DNA of 64,000 nucleotides, taken from positions 20,846,184-20,910,183 of the forward strand of contig CAIIXF020000012.1 of the NCBI GenBank assembly GCA_903813345.2, written 5' to 3'. Shown piece after piece: positions 11,348-61,245 of this stretch. The notes under the pieces are model-generated. The model saw nothing but the letters and a program-made list of their open reading frames with translations, searched no databases and was not told the DNA's origin. The stretch comes from Owenia fusiformis. Its lineage: Eukaryota; Annelida; Polychaeta; Sabellida; Oweniidae. The stretch's first letter is position 1. Every line of letters starts with the position of its first letter. The translations under genes were made by a program, and so were the position numbers.

Positions 11348-11654
11348 ATGATTACTTTATTTGGATTAAATGACAATTGAAGACACCTCAACATATTGCC
11401 ATTTTAGCACTATTTTAGCACTATTTTCACTATTTGCAACGTGATTGTACATGGGATCGGGACATAGTATGAACATGAACATCCAGTGATTGTTGTGTCT
11501 GATTTTAGCAAACCATTCAACAATCACTGGATGTTCACGTTCATACTATGTCCCGATCCCATGTACAATCACGTTGCAAATAGTGAAAATAGTGCTAAAA
11601 TGGCAATATGTTGAGGTGTCTTCAATTGTCATTTAATCCAAATAAAGTAATCAT
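11348..11654. repeat. Long near-perfect hairpin, arms 148 and 137 bp
   Basis: Left arm 11348-11495 and right arm 11518-11654 are reverse complements over their full length, with a 22-nt loop. I see one substitution (GAACATGAAC against GAACGTGAAC) and one 11-bp difference: the left arm carries an extra TTTTAGCACTA unit, seen as a doubled TTTTAGCACTATTTTAGCAC. If transcribed, either strand would form a very long double-stranded stem. No protein and no certain target duplication. Confidence 0.92.
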
Positions 11655-16263: not shown

Positions 16264-16751
16264 GGTATGAGGTTCCATATCCATCCGCCAATAGCCATAT
16301 CAATCCGCCCTATATAGTCCATTTAAAAACCTGTAGTATTGTTCTAAATAACACCATAGTTTGTTTCTAGGGTACCAGTACCTAGTATGCCACTATTTGG
16401 TATTAAAATAAAGAGAAGGAGTTTTGAACTTTCATTTGAATTACGAAAATAGCGATGTAGGTCAAAAATAGTTCCGATGTGAGCATGTTTACTACGCGTT
16501 GGCCCATCATCTCAGAATTGAGGAAATGGTAGCAAACGCGAGTTACAATAAATGGACGCTGATATCTCAAAAAGTAACCTGACTCCCTATAATTTGATGT
16601 AGATCAATCGAACCCCTATATGAACAGGTACATTTTGATATATAACACTATGGGGGTATTAAAAAGCGTTTTAAAGTTGATCACGAACGCCATATGTGCA
16701 AAGTATTGATATGAATTTTCGAATTTGGTGTTGGATTACGGTACTCATACC
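16264..16751 (+). mobile_element. Solo E element (488 bp) with TTAT target duplication
   Basis: It starts GGTATGAGGTTCCATATCC and ends GGTACTCATACC, so GGTATGAG/CTCATACC are short terminal inverted repeats. The direct repeat TTAT flanks it at 16260-16263 and 16752-16755. It is homologous end to end with the two E copies that bracket the composite at 23084-25597, with more substitutions and small indels. A TTAA-like 4-bp target recalls piggyBac and Kolobok superfamilies (established knowledge); assignment needs a search. No transposase. Confidence 0.85.
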
Positions 16752-22700: not shown

Positions 22701-23083
22701 ATTGTCTGCGTTCTGTCAGTGATGATTACTGTTTATAACATGCAATTCGAAGCAAATAAACACCAGAATTGCTCGTTATTTGCAAGCAATATTCGTTTTT
22801 TTATACAGTGTTTGTTAATGTATTATGTTTTATAAAACATGAACAATAATTTGTTGTTTGACCCCTTGCGATTATATGGAAAAATTCTGGTAATAAAATG
22901 TTTTAAATGGTAAGAAAACTAATATGTTCCCAATGATAAATTACCTAAATATTCCACACAATTTTGTTGAATCTACTCGACTCGTATTTGAAAAATCAAA
23001 CAAAATCTGAAAAACACACTTGCGTAATAACACTAATTAAACACCGACATCTACAGTACAATTATAGTATATTTTTACATTAT

Positions 23084-25597
23084 GGTATGAGGTTCCATAT
23101 CCATCCGCCAAAAACCTATATAGTCCATTTAAAAACCTGTGGTATTGTTCTAAATAACGCCATAGTTGGCTTCTAGGGTACCTAGTATGCCACTATTTGG
23201 TATCAAAATAAAGAGGAGGAGTTTAACTTTCATTTGAATTACGAAAATAGCGATGTAGGTCAAAAATAGTTCCGACGTGAGCATGTTTACTACGCGTTTG
23301 CCCGTCATATAAGAATTGAGGAAGTGGTGGCAAACGCGAGTTACAATAAATGGACGCTGATATCTCAAAAAGTAACCTGACTCCCTATAATTTGATGTAG
23401 ATCAATCGAACCCCTATATGAACAGGTACATTTTGATATATAACACGATAGGGGGTAAGCGTTTTATAGTTGGTCACAAACGCCATATGTGCAAAGTATT
23501 GTTATGAATTTTCGAATTTGGTGTTGGATTACGGTACTCATACGTATACCTTAAAATGAGGCCTAAAATTGTCTGCTAGTTGGCCAGAGACCAATATTCT
23601 AGCATAATTTGAGAACAGAATCGATTTTTTCGTTCTGCGTAGGGCAAACAATGATTTTAAATCACTTTCAACCCTTCTGTGAGGATAAGAATGGTCATAA
23701 GAGGCCCGTGAAGGGTCATGCATGAAAGAAAGCCCTCTGAAATTCCGTCAAAATTGCAGGTTATTTCTTCATTTTTTGCTAAAATTACATGATTTTCAGG
23801 GCCCATATCTCAGTGAAATTGCTACAATGTAGCGATTTTTCATTTTTACAGGCTAGATACACGTGTCAGGTCGACAGAAACAGTAAGCATGTGTGATCTT
23901 TAAATTGCTACATTGTAGCAATATTTATTTCAAAATACAGGTGTGAGTGAAACTGCAATTTAGTTAGATTTGGGCGAAAATGGCCAGATTTCAGTCAAAA
24001 TCCTCGGGACACAGGGCCTTTGTCTCAGATTTAGTCAATGATGCAACTCTTAGTAGAAGGTGTGCCATATAGGGAATGAAAGCTGTTTGTTAGACGTATC
24101 ATTTCCTTCAATAAACTCAGAGATAGTCAGGTTAGATTTGTGACGTCATAGTGGCAAAGTTAGACTAGCATATTTAGACGTATTTGGGGTAGGGCAAATT
24201 AACCCTTTCTAGCCTAAATGGATAAATTTTTCACATATTCAGCCAGTTCCGACGTTTTTATGCATTTTTGAACTAAAAATGATATTTTCTACCAAAAAAA
24301 GTTGCAGAGACAAAAATCAGTGTGATGTCATAAAACATTAATATGAGGCCTAAAATTGTCTGCTAGTTGGCCAGAGACCAATATTCTAGCATAATTTGAG
24401 AACAGAATCGATTTTTTCGTTCTGCGTAGGGCAAACAATGATTTGAAATCACTTTCAACCCTTCTGTGAGGATAAGAATGGTCATAAGAGGCCCGTGAAG
24501 GGTCATGCATGAAAGAAAGCCCTCTGAAATTCCGTCAAAATTGCAGGTTATTTCTTCATTTTTTGCTAAAATTACATGATTTTCAGGGCCCATATCTCAG
24601 TGAAATTGCTACAATGTAGCGATTTTTCATTTTTACAGGCTAGATACACGTGTCAGGTCGACAGAAACAGTAAGCATGTGTGATCTTTAAATTGCTACAT
24701 TGTAGCAATATTTATTTCAAAATACAGGTGTGAGGGAAACTGCAATTTAGTTAGATTTGGGCGAAAATGGCCAGATTTCAGTCAAAATCCTCGGGACACA
24801 GGGCCTTTGTCTCAGATTTAGTCAATGATGCAACTCTTAGTAGAAGGTGTGCCATATAGGGAATGAAAGCTGTTTGTTAGACGTATCATTTCCTTCAATA
24901 AACTCAGAGATAGTCAGGTTAGATTTGTGACGTCACAGTGGCAAAGTTAGACTAGCATATTTAGACGTATTTGGGGTAGGGCAAATTAACCCTTTCTAGC
25001 CTAAATGGATAAATTTTTCACATATTCAGCCAGTTCCGACGTTTTTATGCATTTTTGAACTAAAAATGGTATTTTCTACCAGAAAAAGTTGCAGAGACAA
25101 AAATCAGTGTGATGTCATAAAACATTAAGGTATGAGGTTCCATATCCATCCGCCAAAAGGTATGACCCCTATATAGTCCATTTAAAAACCTGTGGTATTG
25201 TTCTAAATAACGCCATAGTTGGCTTCTAGGGTACCTAGTATGCCACTATTTGGTATCAAAATAAAGAGGATGAGTTTAACTTTCATTTGAATTACGAAAA
25301 TAGCGATGTAGGTCAAAAATAGTTCCGACGTGAGCATGTTTACTACGCGTTTGCCCGTCATATAAGAATTGAGGAAGTGGTGGCAAACGCGAGTTACAAT
25401 AAATGGACGCTGATATCTCAAAAAGTAACCTGACTCCCTATACTTTGATGTAGATCAATCGAACCCCTATATGAACAGGTACATTTTGATATATAACACT
25501 ATGGGGGGTAAGCGTTTTATAGTTGGTCACGAACGCCATATGTGCAAAGTATTGTTATGAATTTTCGAATTTGGTGTTGGATTACGGTACTCATACC
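23084..25597 (+). mobile_element. Composite element A, layout E-U-U-E
   Basis: Parts: E1 23084-23550 (467 bp), TTAA, U1 23555-24337, TTAA, U2 24342-25124, TTAA, E2 25129-25597 (469 bp), TTAA. The outside left flank is TTAT. E begins GGTATGAG and ends CTCATACC; E1 ends with a small variant, CTCATACGTATACC. U1 and U2 form a 787-bp tandem duplication with only a handful of differences (for example CATAGTGG against CACAGTGG near 24150/24937). E1 and E2 are direct, not inverted, and nearly identical. No transposase or other protein is recognised. The same plan recurs in diverged form at 30918-33441. Confidence 0.88.
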
Positions 25598-25639
25598 TTA
25601 AGATAACCTTTTTTTGTTCACATGCTTAGAATAACGGTC

Positions 25640-26715
25640 TACAGGGTGTCCCAGAACTCATGAGAATTTTTTGAGGGCAATATAAGACATGGGTGATTTT
25701 TCCTCAAATTTGGTATACTTATTTAACACACTTTAGGGAATGACTGACATGGATTTCAGGCACTTATCTTTTATATTTCCGAATTTATTGACATTTGAAT
25801 TCTACATCGCCACAAACCCCGGAGTTATCGGGAAAACACAACAGATTATGTCACATTTTATCAATTTTATACATATTCTCAACTATAAAACCAATAATTT
25901 TGTATAAGCTTAGTTCAGCATTTTTCTCATATTGATGATGCACTTTGATAAAACGATATATAAACTTTGATAGAGACCCAATAAATCAACAGATTATACA
26001 TTTGGTTTGCTGAAAGATCACAATGATCCTGAGGGATTGAAAGAAATGTCTCCATTTGCTAGCCAATATGATCTTGCATATTGACAATGCACCAGTGAAT
26101 AAGTCACTACATGCATGTCAGTAGTGCATCCAATTTACTTTCTATTGAGACTTTACAGTATATAGTAGCTCCATATACTTGACAGATTTTGCTCTACTAG
26201 ACTTTTGATTTCTTTTGGGACCTTAAACAAAGATTACTGAGCCATGTCACTGAAACGGAGGAAGAATTGAGTCATGTTGTTTCAGAGGATCCTACAGAAA
26301 TGCCTATTGGACGATTTGGGAATGTGTATAAAGAGTAGCTGAAAATACGACATCAACTGTAGATAATATGCTATAATAACTCCGTAGAGATACGTTAGCT
26401 GAATGTGTATGATCCTATTAACTAATGTACTGAAACGCTGAATTAATTCAATGGAAACAATGCTATTAGAGTAGAAAAGTTATGTAAATATTATCAAAAT
26501 GTGACGTAAATTGTTGTATTTCTCTGACTACTCCAGGGTTTGTGGCGAAGTAGAATTCAAATGACAATAAATTCGGAAATATGAAAGATATGTGCCTGAA
26601 ATTCATGTCAGTTATTCCTCAATGTTTGTTTATTAAGTGCACTTAATTTGAAGGAAAATCATTCATGCCTTATATCTCCCTCAAAAAATTCTCATGAGTT
26701 CTGGGACACCCTGTA
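25640..26715 (+). pseudogene. Mariner-like element with long terminal repeats and dead transposase
   Basis: The termini read TACAGGGTGTCCCAGAACTC and the complement, ending GGACACCCTGTA. TA is duplicated at both ends, as for the Tc1/mariner superfamily (established knowledge). The terminal inverted repeats run inward for roughly 220 bp (about 25641-25865 and 26495-26714), much longer than usual for mariner. In the middle a frame at about 26071-26220 reads ILHIDNAPVNKS and later FALLDF, matching the HDNAP and APxDFxLF catalytic blocks. The two Asp codons (26083 and 26200) are in the same frame with 38 residues between, slightly more than the usual 34. Stops interrupt the frame, so it is a pseudogene. 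Confidence 0.82.
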
Positions 26716-28480
26716 TCTCTTATAAAATGTTCGAATCAAAATATTTACGTTTTTTGACCCCTTGTGATGAAAGACATTTTTCGACCCGAAAGCCGGAAGA
26801 TTTTTCAGCAAATGGTATTTTAAAATAATCAACACATATGCGCTTCCATAAATATTGCTTCAAATCTTGCTGCGCTATAGTGTGCTACGGATCCTTCACA
26901 TTCGGAAGTCACATACCATGACTAAATGCTACATGTATGAGTTTTTAGAGAGGTGCATGCATATGAAACACCCTGTATATCAAACTACACTATATGAAAC
27001 ACCCTGTATATTAAACTACACTATATGATTGTGTCAAATTGTAGATCTTCTTTGTAAAATTGATTTGGGTTTCATTAAATACGTTTGTCGCTAAAGCTTT
27101 TACGACTGCCATAACCCAGGGAGCCCAGTAAGGAGCCATTATCTCTGTGCGAGATTTCAATTCTAGGCAATGGACATGAGTAAAAACCTATGTGTATTGG
27201 ACTGGCACATATCCCGATCGCAATCTTTTATTGGTGTTTTGAATTGGTGTTTTGAATTCCCATTAGACGTAGAATGCGGTCTATTTCTAGTTTCTACGTC
27301 ATGGCAACAACATTCGTAATAAAATTGACCATTTCAGAAGAAAATCCATAGTTATGAAACTTATTTAATAAATACAGTGATTTATTATATCACTATCTAG
27401 GTACGTAGCTACCGCATGATTGGTCAAAACCGGATCACATATTATGTAATATAAATATAAATATAGCCGTTTGAAATAGTTTTTATCATAGAACCGATTT
27501 TTGAGTGAAAATGATCTCAATATGATTTTTCTCCGGGACAATACGATTTTTCAAGTATATATGATTTTTTCCCGAGACAATATGATTTTTCGAGTATATA
27601 CAATTTAAGAGGGACAATACGCTTTATTTCCCAAGAAAAACAGTAGTATTTTGGAATAACTGGCGGTATTCAATGGCCATGCTAATGAGGTAAGACAATC
27701 GTTGAATATTGTAATAATATCCTATGGTTTTGAAAAAATATCATTTATATCCATGAGTGGATATTGATATCTTCATGAGTGAGCGCAGCGAATGGGTGAA
27801 GATATTGATATCCATGACTGGGGACCATAGTATTGTCCGTTTATCACATGGTAAATCATTACTCAGCGAAAATAAAATTTGAAAAAAATTCTGAAAAAGA
27901 TATTTTGGAAATTAAAAAATAGATTACAAAATTCATGAATTGTTTTTTTCAAAAATGTTGAAAAAGGGGGATTTTTTGCCAAAATATGATATCTTGATCC
28001 ACATATCAAATATATCTTCACTTGATATTCGATCTATATCCTTGTAACCATGGGATAATTAGCAATATCCCACGCTACCCGGGACTTTCCTAAGAATTTA
28101 TTTTCATTCATGATCAATGTAAGTCAAAATGGCATTGACAAAAAAATTTAACGAATTTCTGACGAAGAAGTGTTAAAATTAATTGAAAATGAATACACAT
28201 GTACCACAAAAATCATATAAACGTTGGATTAGAATTTTGTTGATTGGAAGGAGGAAACTGGGAACGAAATAAACTTGCAAATCAACAGATGTTGATATAA
28301 TAGAACAAATATTTCACTCTGCTTTCGGTGAATACCTGTGACACTTTCCTTGTGCTTAGGAGTGTAGTGTTCACTTTTATGCTGCATAAGTGTGTTAGTC
28401 TATGTTATATTGTGCGTTACATGAATGAAACGAATTGTACTTCGCAATTTTGCAGTATTGAACGATACAAGTGAACAGTA
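26716..28480. other. No gene; short tandem repeat and small foldback
   Basis: A diverged tandem repeat of about 40 bp occurs at about 27518-27640, built from ATATGATTTTTC, GGGACAATA and CGAGTATATA words. A foldback at about 27748-27818 has a loop GAGTGAGCGCAGCGAATG, the same loop class as 43717-43855. Two short copies of ATATGAAACACCCTGTATAT lie at about 26960-27020. No coding region found. Confidence 0.45.
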
Positions 28481-28717
28481 TTGTACTTTATTATGCACCT
28501 CATTAAAATGCTCAAATTTGATTGGTTAAGAGCTGCGGGGTCTATTGCCATACGTGGCAGCAAGATCTCGTTCTATCCAGTATTGAAGTAACGAGATCTC
28601 CAACCATCCCGTATGCCAGAATACCTATCCTCGAAAAGAAATACTAGGCTCGGCATCTGTTTTAGTAGACCCATTATTTAAAATAAAGTATTTCTCAAGG
28701 GAGGTGCATAATAAAAT

Positions 28718-28855
28718 AAATACTGGATGACCATGAGGTGGATATGCCAGAATACATATCCTCGAAAAAAAATACTAGGCTCGGTTTCGCCTCGCCTAGT
28801 ATTTTTTCCTCGGATAGGTATTCTGGCATATCCACCTCATGGTCATCCAGTATTT
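28718..28855. repeat. Foldback palindrome, arms about 62 bp
   Basis: The left arm starting AAATACTGGATGACCATGAG pairs with the right arm ending CTCATGGTCATCCAGTATTT around a loop TCGGTTTCGCCTC. A partial copy of the left arm (GTATGCCAGAATACCTATCC onward) lies just upstream at about 28610, between inverted TTATGCACCTC (28490) and GAGGTGCATAA (28703) boxes. That makes this a nested foldback cluster. Confidence 0.8.
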
Positions 28856-28899
28856 GTTTAAAACGAGTGTGCGGTATATTATATATATATATTATCCCT

Positions 28900-29760
28900 C
28901 TCATATTGCGCCATTTACTCTATCTAGGATTGACTATTGTTGCAATTATGTTTAGTTGTCGATAATTTTAGGTTCTTATGAGACCCATTAAACAATCCAT
29001 TCGAGAGAGTCTTATTAGATTCAAGTCGATAATTCTTTCCTCATTTAAAGAAGCATTTATTAATTCCGCAAGGGATAACTTTTTACATTAATTAATAATG
29101 TAAACTCTAACATCAATAACGTCAACGAAAATATTTTACGAATAGGATATCCCTCTCCTATCCTCGAAAAATAAGAGTGATAACTGAGAGTAAATTGTAA
29201 TGAGTGATTGAAATAGGATGATGTATGCAATTATAAATTCCAAAATGGGCTTGAATGGAACGGGAACCTCAAATATTTGAAGCATATTTCATTAATTAAG
29301 GCTTCAACTGAACACTTGCTAACATCTATATACATTCAAGCGATACATTCAAACCTTAAATTGATAAATAAAACCCACTTAAGAATAGTGTCCTTTCCAT
29401 GTTTGCTCTAATGAAGTAACAGTCTGACATTAACGGACACGGATTCCTTTGATCTGTACAGAGCTAATACAAAATACTTTGCGATAATGGATCAAATGTA
29501 CATGTATTATTTTGGATAAACGGATTGCCCTGGCACTTCTTCCGCGAACGTATTCCTTTATGCCTCAATTAATTGTGAAAGACGGGGATGTTATTCAAAC
29601 AAAACACAGGCGAATGATGCACACATTTAGAATAAAAAAGGCATTGAGGGAACACATTTTAGAATAAAACAGGCATTTAGGGATGATGTAGGCCAAAATG
29701 GCGAACGCATTTTAGGCCAAGAGATCGAAGGCGTTACAAACAAATGAAAGAAATAACTTT
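28900..29760. other. No gene recognised
   Basis: AT-rich, no open frame of note and no repeat structure recognised apart from its edges. Confidence 0.45.
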
Positions 29761-29762
29761 AT

Positions 29763-30312
29763 CCCATACTTGGACGTGTTACAGGTACATAAACCGGTTT
29801 GTAAAAACTTATATTTTCATCAGCGGACAGATATAGCTTTACGTCCCGCTCCGAGCGGGCAGATATAGTATATCTGCCCGCTACGTAATAATCGCCGCTC
29901 GCATATTTGTTCATAATTTGTAACGTTCGCGTAATGACTGTAAACGACAATGGAGAAAACACAGACAATCGGGATCTGTTTGATGGTTTAAAAAAAGGAA
30001 GGAGCATCCAATTAATCAATCAAAAATTCGAGAAAATGAATGTTGAAATATTTGAGAGAACGGGAAAATCCACCCACGGCCAAGAAAACAAAATTGGACA
30101 TGAATATTCTAAAATATTTCCACGATTGAACAATGTGAACCAGATGACCAAGATTGGTATGGGATAAACATATTATCCTATAGTCGGTTCAGGATATTGG
30201 GATTATCCCTTGGCCAATATAATATATTTTCCCTCGGGACCTGCGGCCCTCGGGCAAATATATTATATTGGCCTCGGGATAATCCCAATATCCTGAACCT
30301 CATATAGGATAA
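29763..30312. repeat. Two-part foldback repeat, copy 1
   Basis: Part one (about 29763-30010) starts CCCATACTTGGACGTGTTAC and contains a 29-bp palindrome at 29854-29882 (AGCGGGCAGATATA, centre G, complement). Part two (about 30040-30312) contains a large hairpin at 30186-30299, with arms starting GGTTCAGGATATTGGGATTA. The outer sequences ATTATCCTATA and TATAGGATAAT extend the stem to about 30171-30312. The same parts recur in a different order at 49480-50207. Frames at 29759-30019 and 29907-30167 lie inside the repeat. Confidence 0.8.
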
Positions 30313-30319
30313 TCTCTAT

Positions 30320-30910
30320 ATACGCATTTTATGCTATACGCTTTAATAACAGGCGATATCAAGTAATGAACGCATTTCAAAAATGATGCTCACATCTATA
30401 ATTAAATAAAAAAGGTGAATAAAAGAGCCATTTCAAACAGAATTGGCTACTGTTATACCAATTCTGTTTCTCATCTCTCAAATGCAGTTTCTTCAAATAT
30501 TGATAATATGCGGAGCAGAGTCAGAGTCGTGCACTTTAAATATCGAGACCTTTTAGGTTTGAAATTCAGTCCACTTCCTATGGACAATCATTCTGTTCGT
30601 GAATAAAGAGGTCCTTTAGAATAAACAATAATCCACCCCTGAAGCAATTGGGGTAAAGATGAGAAAATACTTCGGTGAACATATGGGTAAATAATTAAGG
30701 TGGTTCTGTAAGTCTCTCAGATAATAATATATCCGAGACTTAGGATACAATACGCCTTTGTGTATTAAAACTGAATTACCGGGATAAACCAACTGGGATA
30801 AACATCATAAATATTATATTTAAACGGTATCGATATCACCCAAATAATTTCCGCAGAGCACATATCGGTAGCCTAAATAAGTGGTTCATACATTGCTTGG
30901 CATCACTGTC
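30320..30910. other. No gene recognised
   Basis: An open frame at 30415-30606 is unrecognised. No repeat structure seen. Confidence 0.4.
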
Positions 30911-30917
30911 ACATTAA

Positions 30918-33441
30918 GGTGTCACTCCTGTAAATAGCACTTCCGGGTAGGACAGTGTTTTTTAATACTTTAAAAACGAAGCCATGCCAACTTCAATGGT
31001 GTGTATAGTAGGCTTAAGTGTCTGCAATGTGGCCATTTGAGGTATGTCTGTAAAGCTGAGGCCAGGTACTTTCTAAATGTGCCATTTTAAGAAAAAAATC
31101 GCAAGAATATAGTCCCGTAAACTGGAACTACTTTATTCGTTAATTTTCATCGGTGAAGCAGGGATTTTACCTAAAAATGAGTCCCTATGTTGGCGTAGTG
31201 ATATTTAAAAATCGAGACGCAAACCCTATGTTAAATATAGTGTCAAGATGAAGGTTATGTATAGGGGAACGCAGAAATATAGTCATTGTATGGGCTAGTT
31301 CGTTCAAAAATGGCGATATGTACCCCAGAACTTGAATTTTGTGATATTTTTCAATATTTTTCAATGATTTACCGTAATGACACCTTAATATCCCTGCCTT
31401 AGATTGGCTGCCATTTGCGCAGAGACCATGGATGTTGTAGAATTTCAAAATTGTGTCGATATTTACATTCAGGCTAGGCCACACAATGCTTTTAATTCAC
31501 ATTTAAACATCCTGTGCCTATCAGAATGGCCAAACGGGGGCCCAAAGGGATCATAAATGGGAGAAAATCAACTGGGAATTCCATCAAAATTGCTGGTTAT
31601 TTCTCCATAAATTAAATGATTTTAAGGTTCCATACCTCATTTAAATTGCTACAATGTTGCAAATTATCATTTTTTCAGGCTTAATAAACACGCCAGGTGT
31701 ATCACAGGAAGGGTAATCAAGATTAATTTGTAAATTGCTACATTGTAGCAATGGTTTGAGTATGATGTCACAATACACTGGGGCCTAACTGGCGTAATTA
31801 GGAGAAAAGGGGCAAATTTTGCACATGGGGACCACATTTGACTCAAAATATTTGCATTTAGCAACATACATTTCAGTTCATTCTGTGTAATACTTGAAAG
31901 GCATTGCTATAATGATTGACAAAATGAAATAATCTCGGAGATTTTGCGTCTAAAATTTTTGCACGAGATCTCTGAAGTTGATGACCCAATTTTAGGTCAT
32001 TTTGGCCAGTTTTTAGAGACTCAGCCCTCACCTATTTCCCCAAAAATGGCTAGATTTTGTAGAAAACGTGTTAAAAGTTTGGAAATGCAGCTGTTTCGAG
32101 CATTAAATAACTCCATTGTTTGAAAAAAGTGCTAAATGAGCAAAAAATATCATAGTCAAATTTTCCCGTTTTGGGTATTAATATCCCTGCCTTAGATTGG
32201 CTGCCATTTGCGCAGAGACCATGGATGTTGTAGAATTTCAAAATTGTGTCGATATTTACATTCAGGCTAGGCCACACAATGCTTTTAATTCACATTTAAA
32301 CATCCTGTGCCTATCAGAATGGCCAAACGGGGGCCCAAAGGGATCATAAATGGGAGAAAATCAACTGGGAATTCCATCAAAATTGCTGGTTATTTCTCCA
32401 TAAATTAAATGATTTAAAGGTTCCATACCTCATTTAAATTGCTACAATGTTGCAAATTATCATTTTTTCAGGCTTAATAAACACGCCAGGTGTATCACAG
32501 GAAGGGTAATCAAGATTAATTTGTAAATTGCTACATTGTAGCAATGGTTTGAGTATGATGTCACAATACACTGGGGCCTAACTGGCGTAATTAGGAGAAA
32601 AGGGGCAAATTTTGCACATGGGGACCACATTTGACTCAAAATATTTGCATTTAGCAACATACATTTCAGTTCATTCTGTGTAATACTTGAAAGGCATTGC
32701 TATAATGATTGACAAAATGAAATAATCTCGGAGATTTTGCGTCTAAAATTTTTGCACGAGATCTCTGAAGTTGATGACCCAATTTTAGGTCATTTTGGCC
32801 AGTTTTTAGAGACTCAGCCCTCACCTATTTCCCCAAAAATGGCTAGATTTTGTAGAAAACGTGTTAAAAGTTTGGAAATGCAGCTGTTTCGAGCATTAAA
32901 TAACTCCATTGTTTGAAAAAAGTGCTAAATGAGCAAAAAATATCATAGTCAAATTTTCCCGTTTTGGGTATTAAGGTGTCACTCCTGTAAATAGCACTTC
33001 CGGGTAGGACAGTGTTTTTTAATACTTTAAAAACGAAGCCATGCCAACTTCAATGGTGTGTATAGTAGGCTTAAGTGTCTGCAATGTGGCCATTTGAGGT
33101 ATGTCTGTAAAGCTGAGGCCAGGTACTTTCTAAATGTGCCATTTTAAGAAAAAAATCGCAAGAATATAGTCCCGTAAACTGGAACTACTTTATTCGTTAA
33201 TTTTCATCGGTGAAGCAGGGATTTTACCTAAAAATGAGTCCCTATGTTGGCGTAGTGATATTTAAAAATCGAGACGCAAACCCTATGTTAAATATAGTGT
33301 CAAGATGAAGGTTATGTATAGGGGAACGCAGAAATATAGTCATTGTATGGGCTAGTTCGTTCAAAAATGGCGATATGTACCCCAGAACTTGAATTTTGTG
33401 ATATTTTTCAATATTTTTCAATGATTTACCGTAGTGACACC
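30918..33441 (+). mobile_element. Composite element B, layout E-U-U-E
   Basis: Parts: E1 30918-31384 (467 bp), TTAA, U1 31389-32177, TTAA, U2 32182-32970, TTAA, E2 32975-33441 (467 bp). TTAA also lies outside both ends (30914-30917 and 33442-33445). E begins GGTGTCACTCC and ends AGTGACACC or AATGACACC. U repeats with period 793 bp and is almost identical between copies. E1 and E2 are almost identical, with one difference near the right terminus. U is recognisably homologous to U of composite A (for example TCAAAATTGCAGGTTATTTC against TCAAAATTGCTGGTTATTTC), and E probably is too. Duplicate minus-strand frames of 66 aa (31667-31867 and 32460-32660) are simply the same repeat; I do not call them genes. 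Confidence 0.88.
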
Positions 33442-33445
33442 TTAA

Positions 33446-34105
33446 TCAGAACATATTATAGCCATCCTATTTTACAACAGATGAATGGTTATTTTGACCA
33501 GTCAAATGTATTACTTCCTCAACTGCACAAAAGCTACACATGTCATTGGAGAATATTTGATTTCACATATTGAAACAAACCTATCTTAATCTTACATTTC
33601 CCCTACCAGAATGTACTAGTAGTGATTATCATTCTATTACTTCCGATAAACTTCACGAATAAAATAAATCAATTAAGGTGTTAGTTTTGCACTGATGCGC
33701 CTACCCTCTCCCCGCAGCTGCTCCCATGCACTGTTATTTTTATTAGGAGAATGGAGACGTGTGTGGACAGTTTTTAAAGTGAGACGTTGGTAAAAAAGCC
33801 GAGAATATCAATAGCACACGTTGTTTTTGCATCAAGATTTTCGAAATATAATTTCTACCCCAATTAGCGCACGGTCTATAATTTAAAAATTGTTATTACA
33901 GTGTGACACAAAAAAACTGACACCAACCTTATGTTGCATAACTTGTTTGTTTATTAACATACGTGTATAGACTTGTCCTTTGTTACATTTAAAGTAGACA
34001 TAATGAAAAATTTCAGATGTGTAGCTCAAGTGAGTCAAATTTTATGAGCGTTACAACATTTGCTCTAAATGTCGTCCATTCCTTTGCAGACACACATGGA
34101 TTCTC
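33446..34105. other. No gene recognised
   Basis: No recognised coding or repeat feature. Confidence 0.4.
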
Positions 34106-34116
34106 CACAAAAAATG

Positions 34117-34920
34117 CCACCCAGCTTTTGTAACAAAAGTCACACCCCATTCTCTTATACGTCGTAGCACCGGAAGATTTACGACGTTATGCAAGTATTT
34201 TCGGCAGGCGATTTGTAAGAACTCATTTGCTTCGACGTTTTGACAGAATATGGTTCTTTCCTTTTCATAGAAATATCGGCCATATCATGCGGATACCTCT
34301 AGTATCACTACGTCTCAACATTTCACCTGAACACGGTTTAAAACCTCTCAAACCTTCTAGAAAGCTTGACAATCATAGTTTCTATTATTCTAACTCTATC
34401 ATCTTGAAATATTGATTGGATTAACAATACATTTTTTTCAAAACCAATGAAAGAATTCGGAGAAATTAAGTTTTCTTTGAAAGTATACGACGTAAAGGAG
34501 GTATACGACATTTCACAATTGTTAATTTTTAATTCCCCGGACGTCGTACTCCTTTTACGTCGTACACTTTCAAAGAAAAATTGATTTCCCCGGAATTCTT
34601 TCATTGGTTTGGGAAAATGAAGTGTCTGGATGATATGTAAAAATGTATTGTTAATCTTATCAATATTTCAAGATGATAAGGCTAAAATTGTAGAAACGGC
34701 TTTGATGATTTTCGTGAAAAATTATCATTGTTTTTCAAAAAATTGTCGTGCTTTCTAGAAGGTTTAAGAAGTTTTAGTCCGTGTTCAGACGAAATGTCGA
34801 GACGTAGTGATATTAGAGGTATATCTGCATGGTATAGTCAATGTTTCTACGAAAGGGAAAGGACCATATTCTGTCAAAACGTCGAAAAATACTGGGTATA
34901 ATGTTACAAAAGGTGGGTGT
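34117..34920. mobile_element. Large imperfect palindrome (foldback element)
   Basis: Left arm about 34117-34509 and right arm about 34541-34920 are inverted copies with a spacer of about 31 bp. Paired landmarks: CCACCCAGCTTTTGTAACA with TGTTACAAAAGGTGGGTG; CGACGTTTTGACAGAATATG with CATATTCTGTCAAAACGTCG; TTTCTAGAAGG with CCTTCTAGAAAG; TTCTTTGAAAGTATACGACG with CGTCGTACACTTTCAAAGAA. Frames at 34227-34415 and 34338-34604 are arm sequence. It resembles a foldback transposon; target duplication not identified. Confidence 0.82.
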
Positions 34921-39094: not shown

Positions 39095-39797
39095 CTAATC
39101 ACCCTTGGTATACGCAGCTAACGAAAATTGACCGGCACGGGTCAAAAGCTGGACCGGCACGGGTTAACGGTTTTATTTGAATTTAAAACAGCCATAACTT
39201 GCTCAATATTGACTTCCTCGTGTCTAATTTGAAATATATGATTCCTCCCGATGCTTTTAAGTACACCAATTTTTTACAGATTTTTAAACGGACCAAGACT
39301 CTCTAAATGCGCATTTATTCTCTTTTCTCTCGAGAACGACTGTCTCATTTTCACGATAACTTTTATTTAGTACTTCTAACATATAAGATCTATTTTCCCC
39401 ATCAAGGTATGATGTAAATGACATGCTTTTTACATATTGTGAGTTTCAATGACGCGCGTTTGATTTTATAAAAAATGCCAAACTTTGTGACAAAGAATTT
39501 CATCCTGCCTGCAGCGAGAAGACGGACCGGTTCGGGGCAATAGCATGAACATCATTCAGGAATCTTTATACATGTGTGTTACATCTATTATTACAAGGAT
39601 CTAAAGTTTCAAATCTTCTCTTAGAACCTCTCCGACAAACCGTTACATGTCCAACTTACCTTCGGTTGTTCCATCGCTTCTTGGGACACTTTTAATTAAA
39701 ATATTTATTGTATAACAACATTTATCCCATTCTACGACGCATTTGAGGTAAAAAATTAGGTTGGTAAAAAGCTCCAGAGCAAGTTGGATACAGCTGG

Positions 39798-41297: not shown

Positions 41298-42560
41298 TAA
41301 CATGACAAAATGTCACCACCTAAAACAATTTGGTCAATTTAAAGCAAGTTGGAAAATACCTTTTGACCTTAAGAAGAACTTCTGAGAACATGTAGATGAT
41401 TTTGAAAAAAAAATTAGTCAATTTGAAGCAAGTTGAAAAAAAGACCTTTTTGACCTTGAGAAGGTCATTAAAGGTCAAAGATCAAATCTAAAGTCAGATT
41501 TGAACTTCTGAGAACTTGTAAAGTCAAATTTGAACTTCTGAAAAGATGTAGATGATTTTGAAAAAAAAATTGGTCAATTTGAAGCAAGTTGAAAACAGAC
41601 CTTTTTGACCTTTTTTGACCTTGAGAAGGTCATTAAAGGTCAAATGTCAAATCTAAAGTCAGATTTGAATTTCTGAGAACATGTAGATGATTTTGAAAAA
41701 AAGAATTAGTCAATTTGAAGCAAGTTGAAAAAAGACCTTTTTGACCTTTTTTGACCTTGAGAAGGTCAAATGTCAAATCTAAAGTCATATTTAAATTTCT
41801 GAGAACATGTAGATGATTTTGAAAAAAAATTTAGTCAATTTGAAGCAAGATGAAAAAATACCTTTTTGACCTTTTTTGACATTGAGAAGGTCATTGAAGG
41901 TCAAATGTTAAATCTAAAGTCAGATTTGAATTTTTGAGAACATGTAGATGATTTTGAAAAAAAAAATTTGTCAATTTGAAGCAAGTTGAAAAAAGACCTT
42001 TTTGACCTTTTTTGACTTTGAGAAGGTCATTGAAGGTCAAATGTCATATCTTAAGTCAAATCTAAAGTCAGATTTGAATTTCTGAGAACACGTAGATGAT
42101 TTGAAATTTTTTTTAGTCAATTTGAAGCAAGTTGAAAACAGACCTTTTTGACCTTTTTTGACCTTGAGAAGGTCATTGAAGGTCAAATGTCAAATCTAAA
42201 GTCAGATTTGAAGGTCAAATGTCAAATCTAGTCAGATTTGAATTTCTGAGAACATGTAGATGATTTTGAAAAAAAATTTAGTCAATGTGAAGCAAGTTGA
42301 AAAAAGACCTTTTTGACCTTGAGAAGGTCATTGAAGGTCAAATGTCAAATCTAAAGTCAGATTTGAACTTCTGAGAAGATGTAGATGATTTAGAAAAAAA
42401 TTGAAGTCAGTCTAAACAGTATTTGTTAAGTTATAGGAAGTTGTAAGAAATTGTTACAGACGCCGGACGCCAGACGCCGGACGCCGGACGCCAACCACCA
42501 ACCGCCGTCGCAAAAAAACGGAGACCATAACAATATGTCACCACTTTTTGGTGGTGACAT
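41298..42560. mobile_element. TGTCACCACC-ended element carrying a minisatellite
   Basis: The left boundary has ACATGACAAAATGTCACCACC and the right boundary GGAGACCATAACAATATGTC followed by a hairpin CACCACTTTTTGGTGGTG. A much shorter relative lies inverted at 51503-51662. The core is a minisatellite (41330-42420) followed by GACGCCGGACGCC repeats (about 42458-42493). A terminal hairpin plus a core tandem array recalls Helitron-related and pearl-type elements of invertebrates, but I see no clear TC/CTRR ends, so the class is uncertain. Confidence 0.6.
41330..42420 (+). repeat. Minisatellite of about 125-167 bp units with DR4-type half-sites
   Basis: About eight units each begin near CAATTTGAAGCAAGTTGAAA (about 41336, 41419, 41574, 41710, 41835, 41972, 42118 and 42285). 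Six units carry AGGTCA-N4-AGGTCA: 41462, 41627, 41888, 42024, 42170 and 42325 (start of the first half-site). Spacers are TTAA or TTGA. A TGACCT half-site on the other strand lies just before each, and several units also hold TGACCTTTTTTGACCT, a DR4 in reverse. AGGTCA is the nuclear-receptor half-site and 4-bp spacing is the TR/LXR-type arrangement (established knowledge). Whether any receptor binds is unknown. Confidence 0.8.
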
Positions 42561-43855: not shown

Positions 43856-45659
43856 GGGTTTATCCCATGATTACGATCACCTTGTGATATAGTTCGTCAT
43901 AAATACAATTTTTAATTCCCAACAATATTGTGGCGCGAAATGCAAATGTGATATCACACGGATATGCGTGAGATAAACGATATCACACGCATATGAGTTT
44001 GATAAACGATTTTCATGAAAATATCACACGAATTTCAATGATATCAGAAATATCAATAGCTGTTATTGTACAGATAACACATTAATCGTGGGATAATAAG
44101 ATGTATTGTATTATTAAAAACAGTTTGCCAGAAGGTTTGAAAGTACGAATGCATAGCACACATCAAATTAGCATCGCAAGTGCGACCTCTTCATTGCAAA
44201 TCACACAAAGTCTATCTTGAACAGCAAGGCGTGCATATCTTCCAGTTTCAATTTGGAAAACAATGGTATTATTGTTATCGCATATTTTGTCTGGTGCATT
44301 TGTTCGAAAAAATCAAGGCACATAGTAAATGAAAGAGGATAATATCAGATGATATCGATATTAGTCATGTTGACTTTGCTGCTATAATACTTTTAACGCC
44401 AAGTTATATTTCATACCTCTATGTATCTAATTCAAAATAATATCCATCAAGAACTAAGGTCTTCAATGAGTTTTGATCGAATGATACGCTGAAAACTTTT
44501 ATTGAGAGCTGAACATTCAGCATCAATTGTATTGTGAAATAAAACATTTAAAAAAAACTAGATTTCATATGTTTTCCCATTGTAATTAGCTTGGTTTGTT
44601 CGTTATTTTCTCTTCAGTAACAATTTAATGTAATAAGTCTGTCAACTTGGATTTTATTTGTTCTGAAAGAGAAGTTCAATTGGTCCGACATTCACTCTGA
44701 TGATATATTTTTTAGTCTTGGTCGCATTGCTGGTATAGCAGTATCAATGCAATTGTAAAATTCATAATCCATGGCTAGATACTAGGTAGCAACCTCAGGT
44801 TTCATTTGGTATGGAAATTATGATTTGATATCAAGAATTAAAAAAGTTATAGCATATTTTGAAAAAGTGGCGTTTTTTGTCTTACCTTGTATTACTTCCT
44901 AGATCTTCAATAATTACGGTAAAACTAAAAAGGGAAAGAAGAAGACACCGAGCTATGTCTAGCTCAAATAAGCCCCGATTCCTCTGCCAGCGCCCTGCCG
45001 ATTGAGTATTTTGTTCAGAAATGAATGCAATTCTGAACAAAAATAGAGCAATGACCTGATAGCATAGATGGGCAATATTCTAACCATTGGAATTTACAAC
45101 TGACATGTAACGGTCTATCGGAGACGTTTTAAGAGAAGATTTAAAACTTTAGATTCTTGTAATAATAGATGTAACACACATGTATAAAGATTCCTGAATG
45201 ATGTTCATGCTATTGCCCCGAACCGGTCCGTCTTCTCGCTGCAAGCAGGATGAAATTCTTTGTCACAAAGTTTGGCATTTTTTATAAAATCAAACGCGCG
45301 TCATTGAAACTCACAATATGTAAATAGCATGTCATTTACATCATACCTTGATGGGGAAAAATAAATCTTATATGTTAGAAGTACTAAATAAAAGTTATCG
45401 TGAAAATGAGACAGTCGTTCTCGAGAGAAAAGAGCATAAATGCGCATTTAGAGAGTTTTGGTCCGTTTAAAAATCTGTAAAAAATTGGGGTACTTAAAAG
45501 CATCGGGAGGAATCATATATTTCAAATTAGACACGAGGAAGTCAATATTGAGCAAGTTATGGCTGTTTAAAATTCAAATAAAACCGTTAACCCGTGCCGG
45601 TCCAGCTTTTGACCCGTGCCGGTCAATTTTCGTTAGCTGCGTATACCAAGGGTGCTAAT

Positions 45660-60474: not shown

Positions 60475-61245
60475 GGACTTTCACTTTTCTCCACGAAGAA
60501 TGAATGAATTTGTATGTATTTGTATTTTCAAAACACGTTACTTTGCCATAAAAGCGTAACTTTATTGGACTTTAACTTTTCTCCACGAGGAATGCATAAA
60601 TTTATTTGTAGGCATTTTCAAAACACGTTACTTTGCTTTAAAAACGTAACTTTATTGGGCTTTAACTTTATCCACGAAGAATGAATGAATTTTTATGTAG
60701 GCATTTTCAAAACACGTTACTTTGCCTTAAACACGTAACTTTATTGGGCTTTAACTTTATCCACGAAGAATGAATGAATTTTTATGTAGGCATTTTCAAA
60801 ATACGTTACTTTGCTTTAAAATCTTTATTAGACTTTATCTTTATCCACGAACAATGGATGTGTTTTTATGTAGGCATTTTCAAAACACGTCACTTTGCCT
60901 TAAAACGTAATTTTATTGGACTTTGACGTCTCCACGAAGAATGGCTGAATTTTTATATCGGCATTTTCAAAACACGTTACTTTGCCTTAAAAACGTAACT
61001 TAATTGGACTTTAACTTTCTTCAAGAAAAATGGATGAATTTTTATGTAAACATTTTCGAAACACGTTACTTTGTCATAAAAATGTAACTTTATTGGATTT
61101 TAACTTTTCTCCACGAAGAATGAAGGGATTTTTATGTAGGCATTCTAAAACACGTTACTTTGCCTTAAAAACGTAACTTTATTGGACCTTAATTTTATTC
61201 ATGAAGAATGGATGAGTTTTTATGTAGGTATTTTCAATAAAGTTA
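60475..61245 (+). repeat. Minisatellite, about nine units of about 88 bp
   Basis: Each unit contains CTTTAACTTT, TCCACGAAGAATGAATGAAT, TTTTATGTAGGCATTTTC, AAAACACGTTACTTTGCC and AACGTAACTTTATTGG in this order. Units differ by substitutions and small indels, and one (about 60800-60830) lacks part of the AACGTAAC segment. No protein is encoded. Confidence 0.92.

Follow-up and report, generated by a model that had tools for sequence, protein, structure and literature searches.

The window analysed here, a stretch of 64,000 nucleotides of the Owenia fusiformis genome, includes at positions 30918–33441 a composite in which two copies of one module, U, lie in tandem between two copies of another module, E. 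A composite of the same order is present at 23084–25597, and a sequence-only reading of the window had proposed that the duplicated U is either inherited as a structure and homogenised, or regenerated each time. The locus raises the question of how a doubled U arises.

Anatomy of the two composites

The composite at 30918–33441, here composite B, was resolved into the following features.

30914–30917, no strand: left target-site duplication TTAA (outer-flank table)
30918–31384, + strand: E1, long terminal direct repeat (LTDR) of 467 bp, 466/467 identical to E2 with 1 mismatch
31389–32177, + strand: U1, non-coding internal region (INT) of 789 bp, 788/789 identical to U2
32182–32970, + strand: U2, non-coding INT of 789 bp, separated from U1 by a single TTAA (32178–32181)
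32975–33441, + strand: E2, LTDR of 467 bp, with 0 substitutions relative to the solo E of L043
33442–33445, no strand: right target-site duplication TTAA (outer-flank table)

The module order is E-U-U-E, with one TTAA at each boundary (at 30914, 31385, 32178, 32971 and 33442), and U1 contains 9 further internal TTAA. The equal 467 bp E modules, the U period of 793 bp (789 + 4) and the five TTAA sites proposed from the sequence alone were thus all located. The tips of E are inverted repeats, matching at 13/16 bases in E1 and 14/16 in E2, and the ends are GG..CC. The longest closed ORF overlapping the composite is 99 aa, no Rfam match was found in window positions 22800–34000 at gathering thresholds, and single-strand folding of U gave a z of -2.8 (20 shuffles). 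The solo E at L043 (C5:21580719–21581191; duplication TAAA) was compared with the right E over the full 467 bp; the two are clearly close relatives, and either may derive from the other.

The composite at 23084–25597, composite A, and a solo E of its family have the following features.

16264–16751, + strand: solo E of family A, 91% identical to E of composite A, with TTAT on either side
23084–23550, + strand: E1, from a different LTDR family (pairwise alignment)
23555–24337, + strand: U1, the left half of which is 71% identical to U of composite B
24342–25124, + strand: U2, 777/783 identical to U1
25129–25597, + strand: E2, with GGTATGAG present at both tips

Composite A also has the order E-U-U-E, with E modules of 467 and 469 bp (456 matches, 5 mismatches, 14 gap bases) and U modules of 783 bp each (777 matches, 6 mismatches) at a period of 787 bp. 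The proposal that the two composites share one plan and size holds for the order and approximately for the sizes (U period 787 vs 793), and TTAA at every boundary was confirmed for composite B, whereas the outer flanks of composite A are TTAT and TTAA. Inside composite A, 3 further TTAA are found within each U. The inverted tips of its E match plainly for the first 8 bases only and are weaker than those in B, though the ends are again GG..CC.

As had been proposed, U is homologous but diverged between the composites and near-identical inside each (71% between; 788/789 in B and 777/783 in A). The identity between U of A and U of B is 71.0–71.5% over about 365–369 aligned bases and is confined to the left half (blastn E 2e-47 to 1e-44). 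E of A and E of B gave no blastn match at 1e-5, and their global identity of 78.6% is barely above that of three shuffles (75.4–77.8%). The two families therefore have part of U in common (window 31389–31752 and 23555–23922) and not E; near-palindromes such as AAATTGCTACATTGTAGCAAT are found in the common part.

Further repeats are present in the window, namely tandem arrays at 60475–61237 (89-bp unit, 8.6 copies) and 41376–42367 (mixed 126–165-bp units), a 553-bp inverted repeat pair of 97% identity at 39100–39651 and 45102–45654, and long self-complementary stretches at 34231–34886 and 11348–11654.

Module strings and junctions in the assembly

The assembly searched comprises 498 Mb in 525 contigs (C1–C12 of 32–62 Mb each), from which 20 loci of family B, 18 of family A, 4 related loci (about 91% alike) and 12 solo-E loci of family B were taken. 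As L001–L038 were picked as the best matches to E-U-U-E or module queries, U-U is over-represented among them, most in family A, and assembly-wide junction counts are the fairer basis for its frequency. A pattern search of the whole assembly found 62 U-U and 188 U-E junctions of family A (1 for the reversed-pattern control for U-E), with 2 clear E-E junctions and one further E-E match with three mismatches. These patterns miss junctions that are more than 2–3 bases off, and in family A the U-U pattern tolerates slightly less variation than the U-E pattern, as the commonest U end costs it one mismatch. For family B only 2 U-U junctions were found, in the composite at 30918–33441 and in L018. 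The idea of E-U-U-E as a plan retained by the two families was therefore not upheld, given the 2 U-U junctions in B and, in A, 62 U-U against 188 U-E junctions in many string orders. In L018 (C8:37700051–37706608), E and U are partly deleted and 4.3 kb of other DNA lies within a U.

Among the A and B loci taken, the strings include solo E, E-U-E, E-U-U-E, E-U-E-U-E, (E-U)n-E and mixed forms, and longer strings such as E(UE)5, E-U-U-E-U-U-E and E-UUU-E-U-E-U-E-U-E were seen. Modules of one family share their orientation within a string, except for a detached piece in L015. TTAA joins intact neighbouring modules and is only rarely altered (to TTGA in L002 and to TTAT in L013); at some B loci the match stops a few bases before the module does, which lengthens the printed gap although the TTAA is still inside it. 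A single TTAA is retained at U-U junctions in both families. The recurrence of U-U at many places with different flanks argues against an assembly artefact, more so for A than for B, for which two such junctions are known.

Strings change fast, as different strings of modules are found among near-identical loci. The copies compared between L037, which is E(UE)5, and L038, which is E-U-E, show no substitution at all, and between L027 and L030, whose strings are unlike, E differs at 2 positions and U at 2. Both L022 and L024 are E-U-U-E-U-U-E with U1 identical to U3 and U2 identical to U4, while U1 and U2 have one difference, at a site that differs between the two loci; this pairing fits unequal exchange between E copies once a U-U pair existed. 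The difference in L022 also occurs in L025 (E-U-U-E) with the order reversed, and its recurrence at this single site may be due to chance.

The four related loci, L039–L042, were considered as a longer element, and this was rejected because flanking sequence is common to all four; they resemble a family-B U-E remnant riding in another dispersed repeat.

Divergence within and between loci

The U and E copies were aligned and compared within and between loci, and divergence was low within and high between loci for all four modules. The medians are as follows.

E of family A (EA, 49 copies): 0.00% within, 1.92% between loci
U of family A (UA, 50 copies): 0.13% within, 2.11% between loci
E of family B (EB, 49 copies): 0.21% within, 2.58% between loci
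U of family B (UB, 23 copies): 0.19% within, 3.57% between loci

For copies having a partner, the nearest relative was found in the same locus for 41/46 EA, 43/45 UA, 22/25 EB and 12/12 UB, with ties assigned to the same locus. Older loci are also present, as the E copies of L014 are 2.81% apart and the U copies of L032 3.20%. A four-point test on the first and last copies grouped them by locus in 292 of 296 locus pairs, with 4 ties and none against (132/136 EA, the rest ties; 105/105 UA; 45/45 EB; 10/10 UB); neither the extra E of L026 nor the solo E of the window entered this test. Among the within-locus substitution sites, 126/138 are private to their locus and 12/138 also occur in another locus, a count that takes in the additional E next to the L026 array, a copy with a duplication of its own.

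Low divergence within and high divergence between loci points to a duplicating or homogenising process, and that part of the original proposal is borne out by the 292/296 pairs and the 126/138 private sites, whereas the retention of E-U-U-E as a plan is not. Two separate E lineages inherited by cut and paste would not produce this pattern. From the sequences, it would appear that the copies were either made anew from one unit near the time of insertion, or had their differences erased by exchange within the locus.

Target sites and loci without a terminal E

In a table of 48 insertions, which omits ten loci whose ends are truncated or uncertain (L009, L015, L017, L019, L020, L034 and L039–L042), the outer 4-bp duplication is exact in 41, differs by one base in 5 and by two bases in 2. 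The 41 exact duplications represent 15 different sequences, with TTAA and TTAT found 9 times each. As the outer duplications vary, TTAA is the constant internal joint and the target site is only TTAA-like. Two insertions break a family-B E copy, the intact form of which gives the empty site; L027 duplicates TTGG and L008 duplicates TAAA.

One terminal E is missing from L031 (UUUUU-E) and L032 (E-UU), yet the outer 4-bp flanks are still equal. One E is also missing from L005 and L006, where the outer flanks are one base apart, and L004 is compatible with equal outer flanks after loss of a terminal E.

A target hot spot was observed at L013, L044 and L049, whose insertion points in a single host repeat, about 99% alike, coincide to within one base; their E copies differ by 8–12 of 467 bases.

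Relationship to KolobokP

In the portion of the KolobokP description used for comparison (Kolobok superfamily; Kojima and Bao 2022, PMC9587614), these elements, a little-studied kind of animal DNA transposon, have the form LTDR-INT-LTDR, with solo LTDRs and multimers, and Owenia fusiformis is among the hosts. The LTDRs are about 450 or about 660 bp and have their own inverted tips of 11–18 bp, perfect or not, with 5'-RR..YY-3' ends and a target duplication of 3–5 bp without strong specificity. One short copy stays at the INT-INT junction of LTDR-(INT)n-LTDR forms, the origin of which is already given there as loss of an LTDR from a multimer, and loss of a single LTDR is also reported. Coding copies carry a DDD/E transposase and an opposite-strand His-Me nuclease (PMC9587614).

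Families A and B resemble this description in LTDR size (467–469 bp in A, 467 bp in B), in inverted tips (13–14/16 in B, weaker in A) with GG..CC ends that fit RR..YY, and in the target duplication (41/48 exact at 4 bp, 15 sequences, TTAA-like bias). Solo LTDRs, (LTDR-INT)n-LTDR multimers, INT-INT junctions keeping one short copy (TTAA) and loss of one terminal repeat are likewise shared. They differ in that the A and B composites examined have no coding sequence and their LTDRs match no coding element tested. Table 2 of PMC9587614, by another method of counting, also gives its LTDR-(INT)n-LTDR class a lower frequency than U-U has in A. On anatomy set against this part of the description, A and B probably belong to the already described KolobokP kind.

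Coding elements were found around the 54 matches from a PF05551 search of the genome. In family C, which has a 470 bp LTDR, a 691 aa ORF matches the PF20700 Mutator-like transposase (E 2.7e-45) and a 125 aa ORF on the opposite strand matches PF05551 (E 9.9e-10); a sequence search of this nuclease against I-PpoI gave a weak match (E 0.04–0.05). The L075 monomer has 460-bp direct repeats of 100% identity and carries two ORFs, of 693 aa and 131 aa, one on each strand; the direct repeats of L076, 658 bp long, are 98.8% identical. The genome thus contains elements that combine a transposase with an opposite-strand His-Me nuclease (L067–L070 and L075). E of A or B was not found in L067–L074 at 1e-3, nor in L069–L077 with a match better than E 0.2, and L067–L077 share neither E nor U of A and B beyond short chance-level matches. 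A transposase that moves A and B would be supplied in trans.

On the unplaced contigs C313, C513, C418 and C443, coding INT units are spaced 3346 + k x 475 bp. The LTDR (475 bp with flank) is present at 14 of the 34 junctions between consecutive nuclease ORFs, k being 0 (no LTDR) at 20, 1 at 13 and 2 at 1; k was read in two 10-kb pieces (L067 and L068) and elsewhere inferred from spacing. The units in L067 and L068 are about 99.8% alike. An array of family A on C5 (17321198–17344496) similarly contains 12 U-U and 12 U-E junctions. Regularity of E spacing in the arrays showed no clear departure from random, an equally or more even placement being reached by 1799, 9312 and 3506 of 20000 shuffles. 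These many consecutive LTDR-less junctions go beyond the KolobokP examples in the portion of PMC9587614 used here, where n reaches 4, though the arrays may reflect collapsed or misjoined assembly.

Origin of the doubled U

Families A and B are probably non-autonomous elements of KolobokP type, in which E-U-E multimerises and an inner E is then lost, leaving one TTAA and hence E-U-U-E. E would be an LTDR that is itself a small transposon with inverted tips, and U a non-coding INT. A transposase acting in trans would cut the outer ends of one E and of the same or another E, so that a solo E, E-U-E or a longer string could be inserted with a 4-bp target duplication, as the anatomy of the insertions indicates; the solo E at 12 of the family-B loci taken supports this reading, as do the TTAA-joined strings in which E and U share one orientation. 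E-U units would multiply by unequal exchange between E copies or via an E-U circle, and the identity pattern suggests that the copies at one locus descend from one recent E-U unit. Departure of an inner E with one TTAA staying behind would join two U modules, converting E-U-E-U-E to E-U-U-E, as the junctions and the loci without one terminal E suggest. Loss of a single E with one short copy left accounts both for loci without a terminal E and for U-U. Insertion of a multimer and expansion in place leave identical flanks, and exchange within the locus could yield the same identity pattern. Also counting against this reading are the coding elements tested, none of which carries E of A or B, the one-base difference between the outer flanks of L005 and of L006, and the 12/138 within-locus variants that recur at other loci.

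A bolder reading, that E-U units multiply as extrachromosomal circles or donor arrays from which the transposase excises E-ended strings of any length, is less likely. If true, C313, C513, C418 and C443, with 3.3-kb coding INT units and irregular LTDR junctions, would be the replicating or donor form, and LTDRs would be regenerated in each round like LTRs, without reverse transcription.

U-U could instead be produced if the internal region were excised as a circle, with a cut at the inner end of each of two E modules, and later recombined into a U, the donor keeping E-E. The INT-INT junction read in coding family C lacks TATTA, which is the spacer between two abutting LTDRs, and is thus reciprocal to the one abutting LTDR pair. 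However, E-E junctions are rare (2 clear and one poor match vs 62 U-U in A; 1 vs 20 in C) and the loci without one terminal E are left unexplained, making this route unlikely.

It is very improbable that tandem U-U arrays came first and that E then transposed into the TTAA of their junctions. E does move alone and TTAA-like targets are preferred, but in strings E sits at module boundaries in one orientation despite the 3 (A) or 9 (U1 of B) further TTAA within U, and at the loci taken no E interrupts a U of the same family. Other sites are usable, as L015 has an E of family A at position 766 of a B-family U.

A reading of A and B as piggyBac MITEs or as short LTR retrotransposons is scarcely credible, despite the TTAA junctions, the LTR-like direct repeats and the solo copies. 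The strict TTAA duplication of a piggyBac MITE was not found, TTAA accounting for 9/41 exact duplications. In 12 piggyBac transposase loci taken from 113 genome matches, TTAA-flanked inverted ends were identified at 5, starting with CTCATT, CTCTTTC or CCTTTAGC, unlike E; no TTAA-flanked ends were found by the search rule at 7/12. On these sequences, a piggyBac origin of A and B is weakened. An LTR retrotransposon was rejected because the ends of E are GG..CC with inverted tips, not TG..CA without them. TRIM or short LTR retrotransposons resemble A and B in being short and non-coding, in having direct repeats at their termini, and in forming solo repeats as well as arrays with a common repeat; U-U is not known to have a counterpart in LTR elements. 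Unlike TRIM, which is mentioned in PMC9587614, E of A and B has inverted tips and inserts alone, and U-U junctions occur. The CMITE elements of corals, linked by their authors to piggyBac (PMC2872659, in the part compared here), likewise lack coding sequence, are TTAA elements, form tandem arrays and have an internal region better conserved across families than the ends, a likeness at the level of description.

Implications

The outcome of the four-point test is hard to square with the plain inheritance of two distinct end modules, and the numbers of U-U, U-E and E-E junctions allow loss of E to be told apart from loss of U. Beside the portion of the KolobokP description used here, the four-point test and the long arrays are additions. 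How KolobokP keeps two matching ends, a question left open in that portion of PMC9587614, becomes testable in Owenia fusiformis, where a single genome holds abundant recent copies together with empty sites, loci missing one end, and families with as well as without coding sequence.
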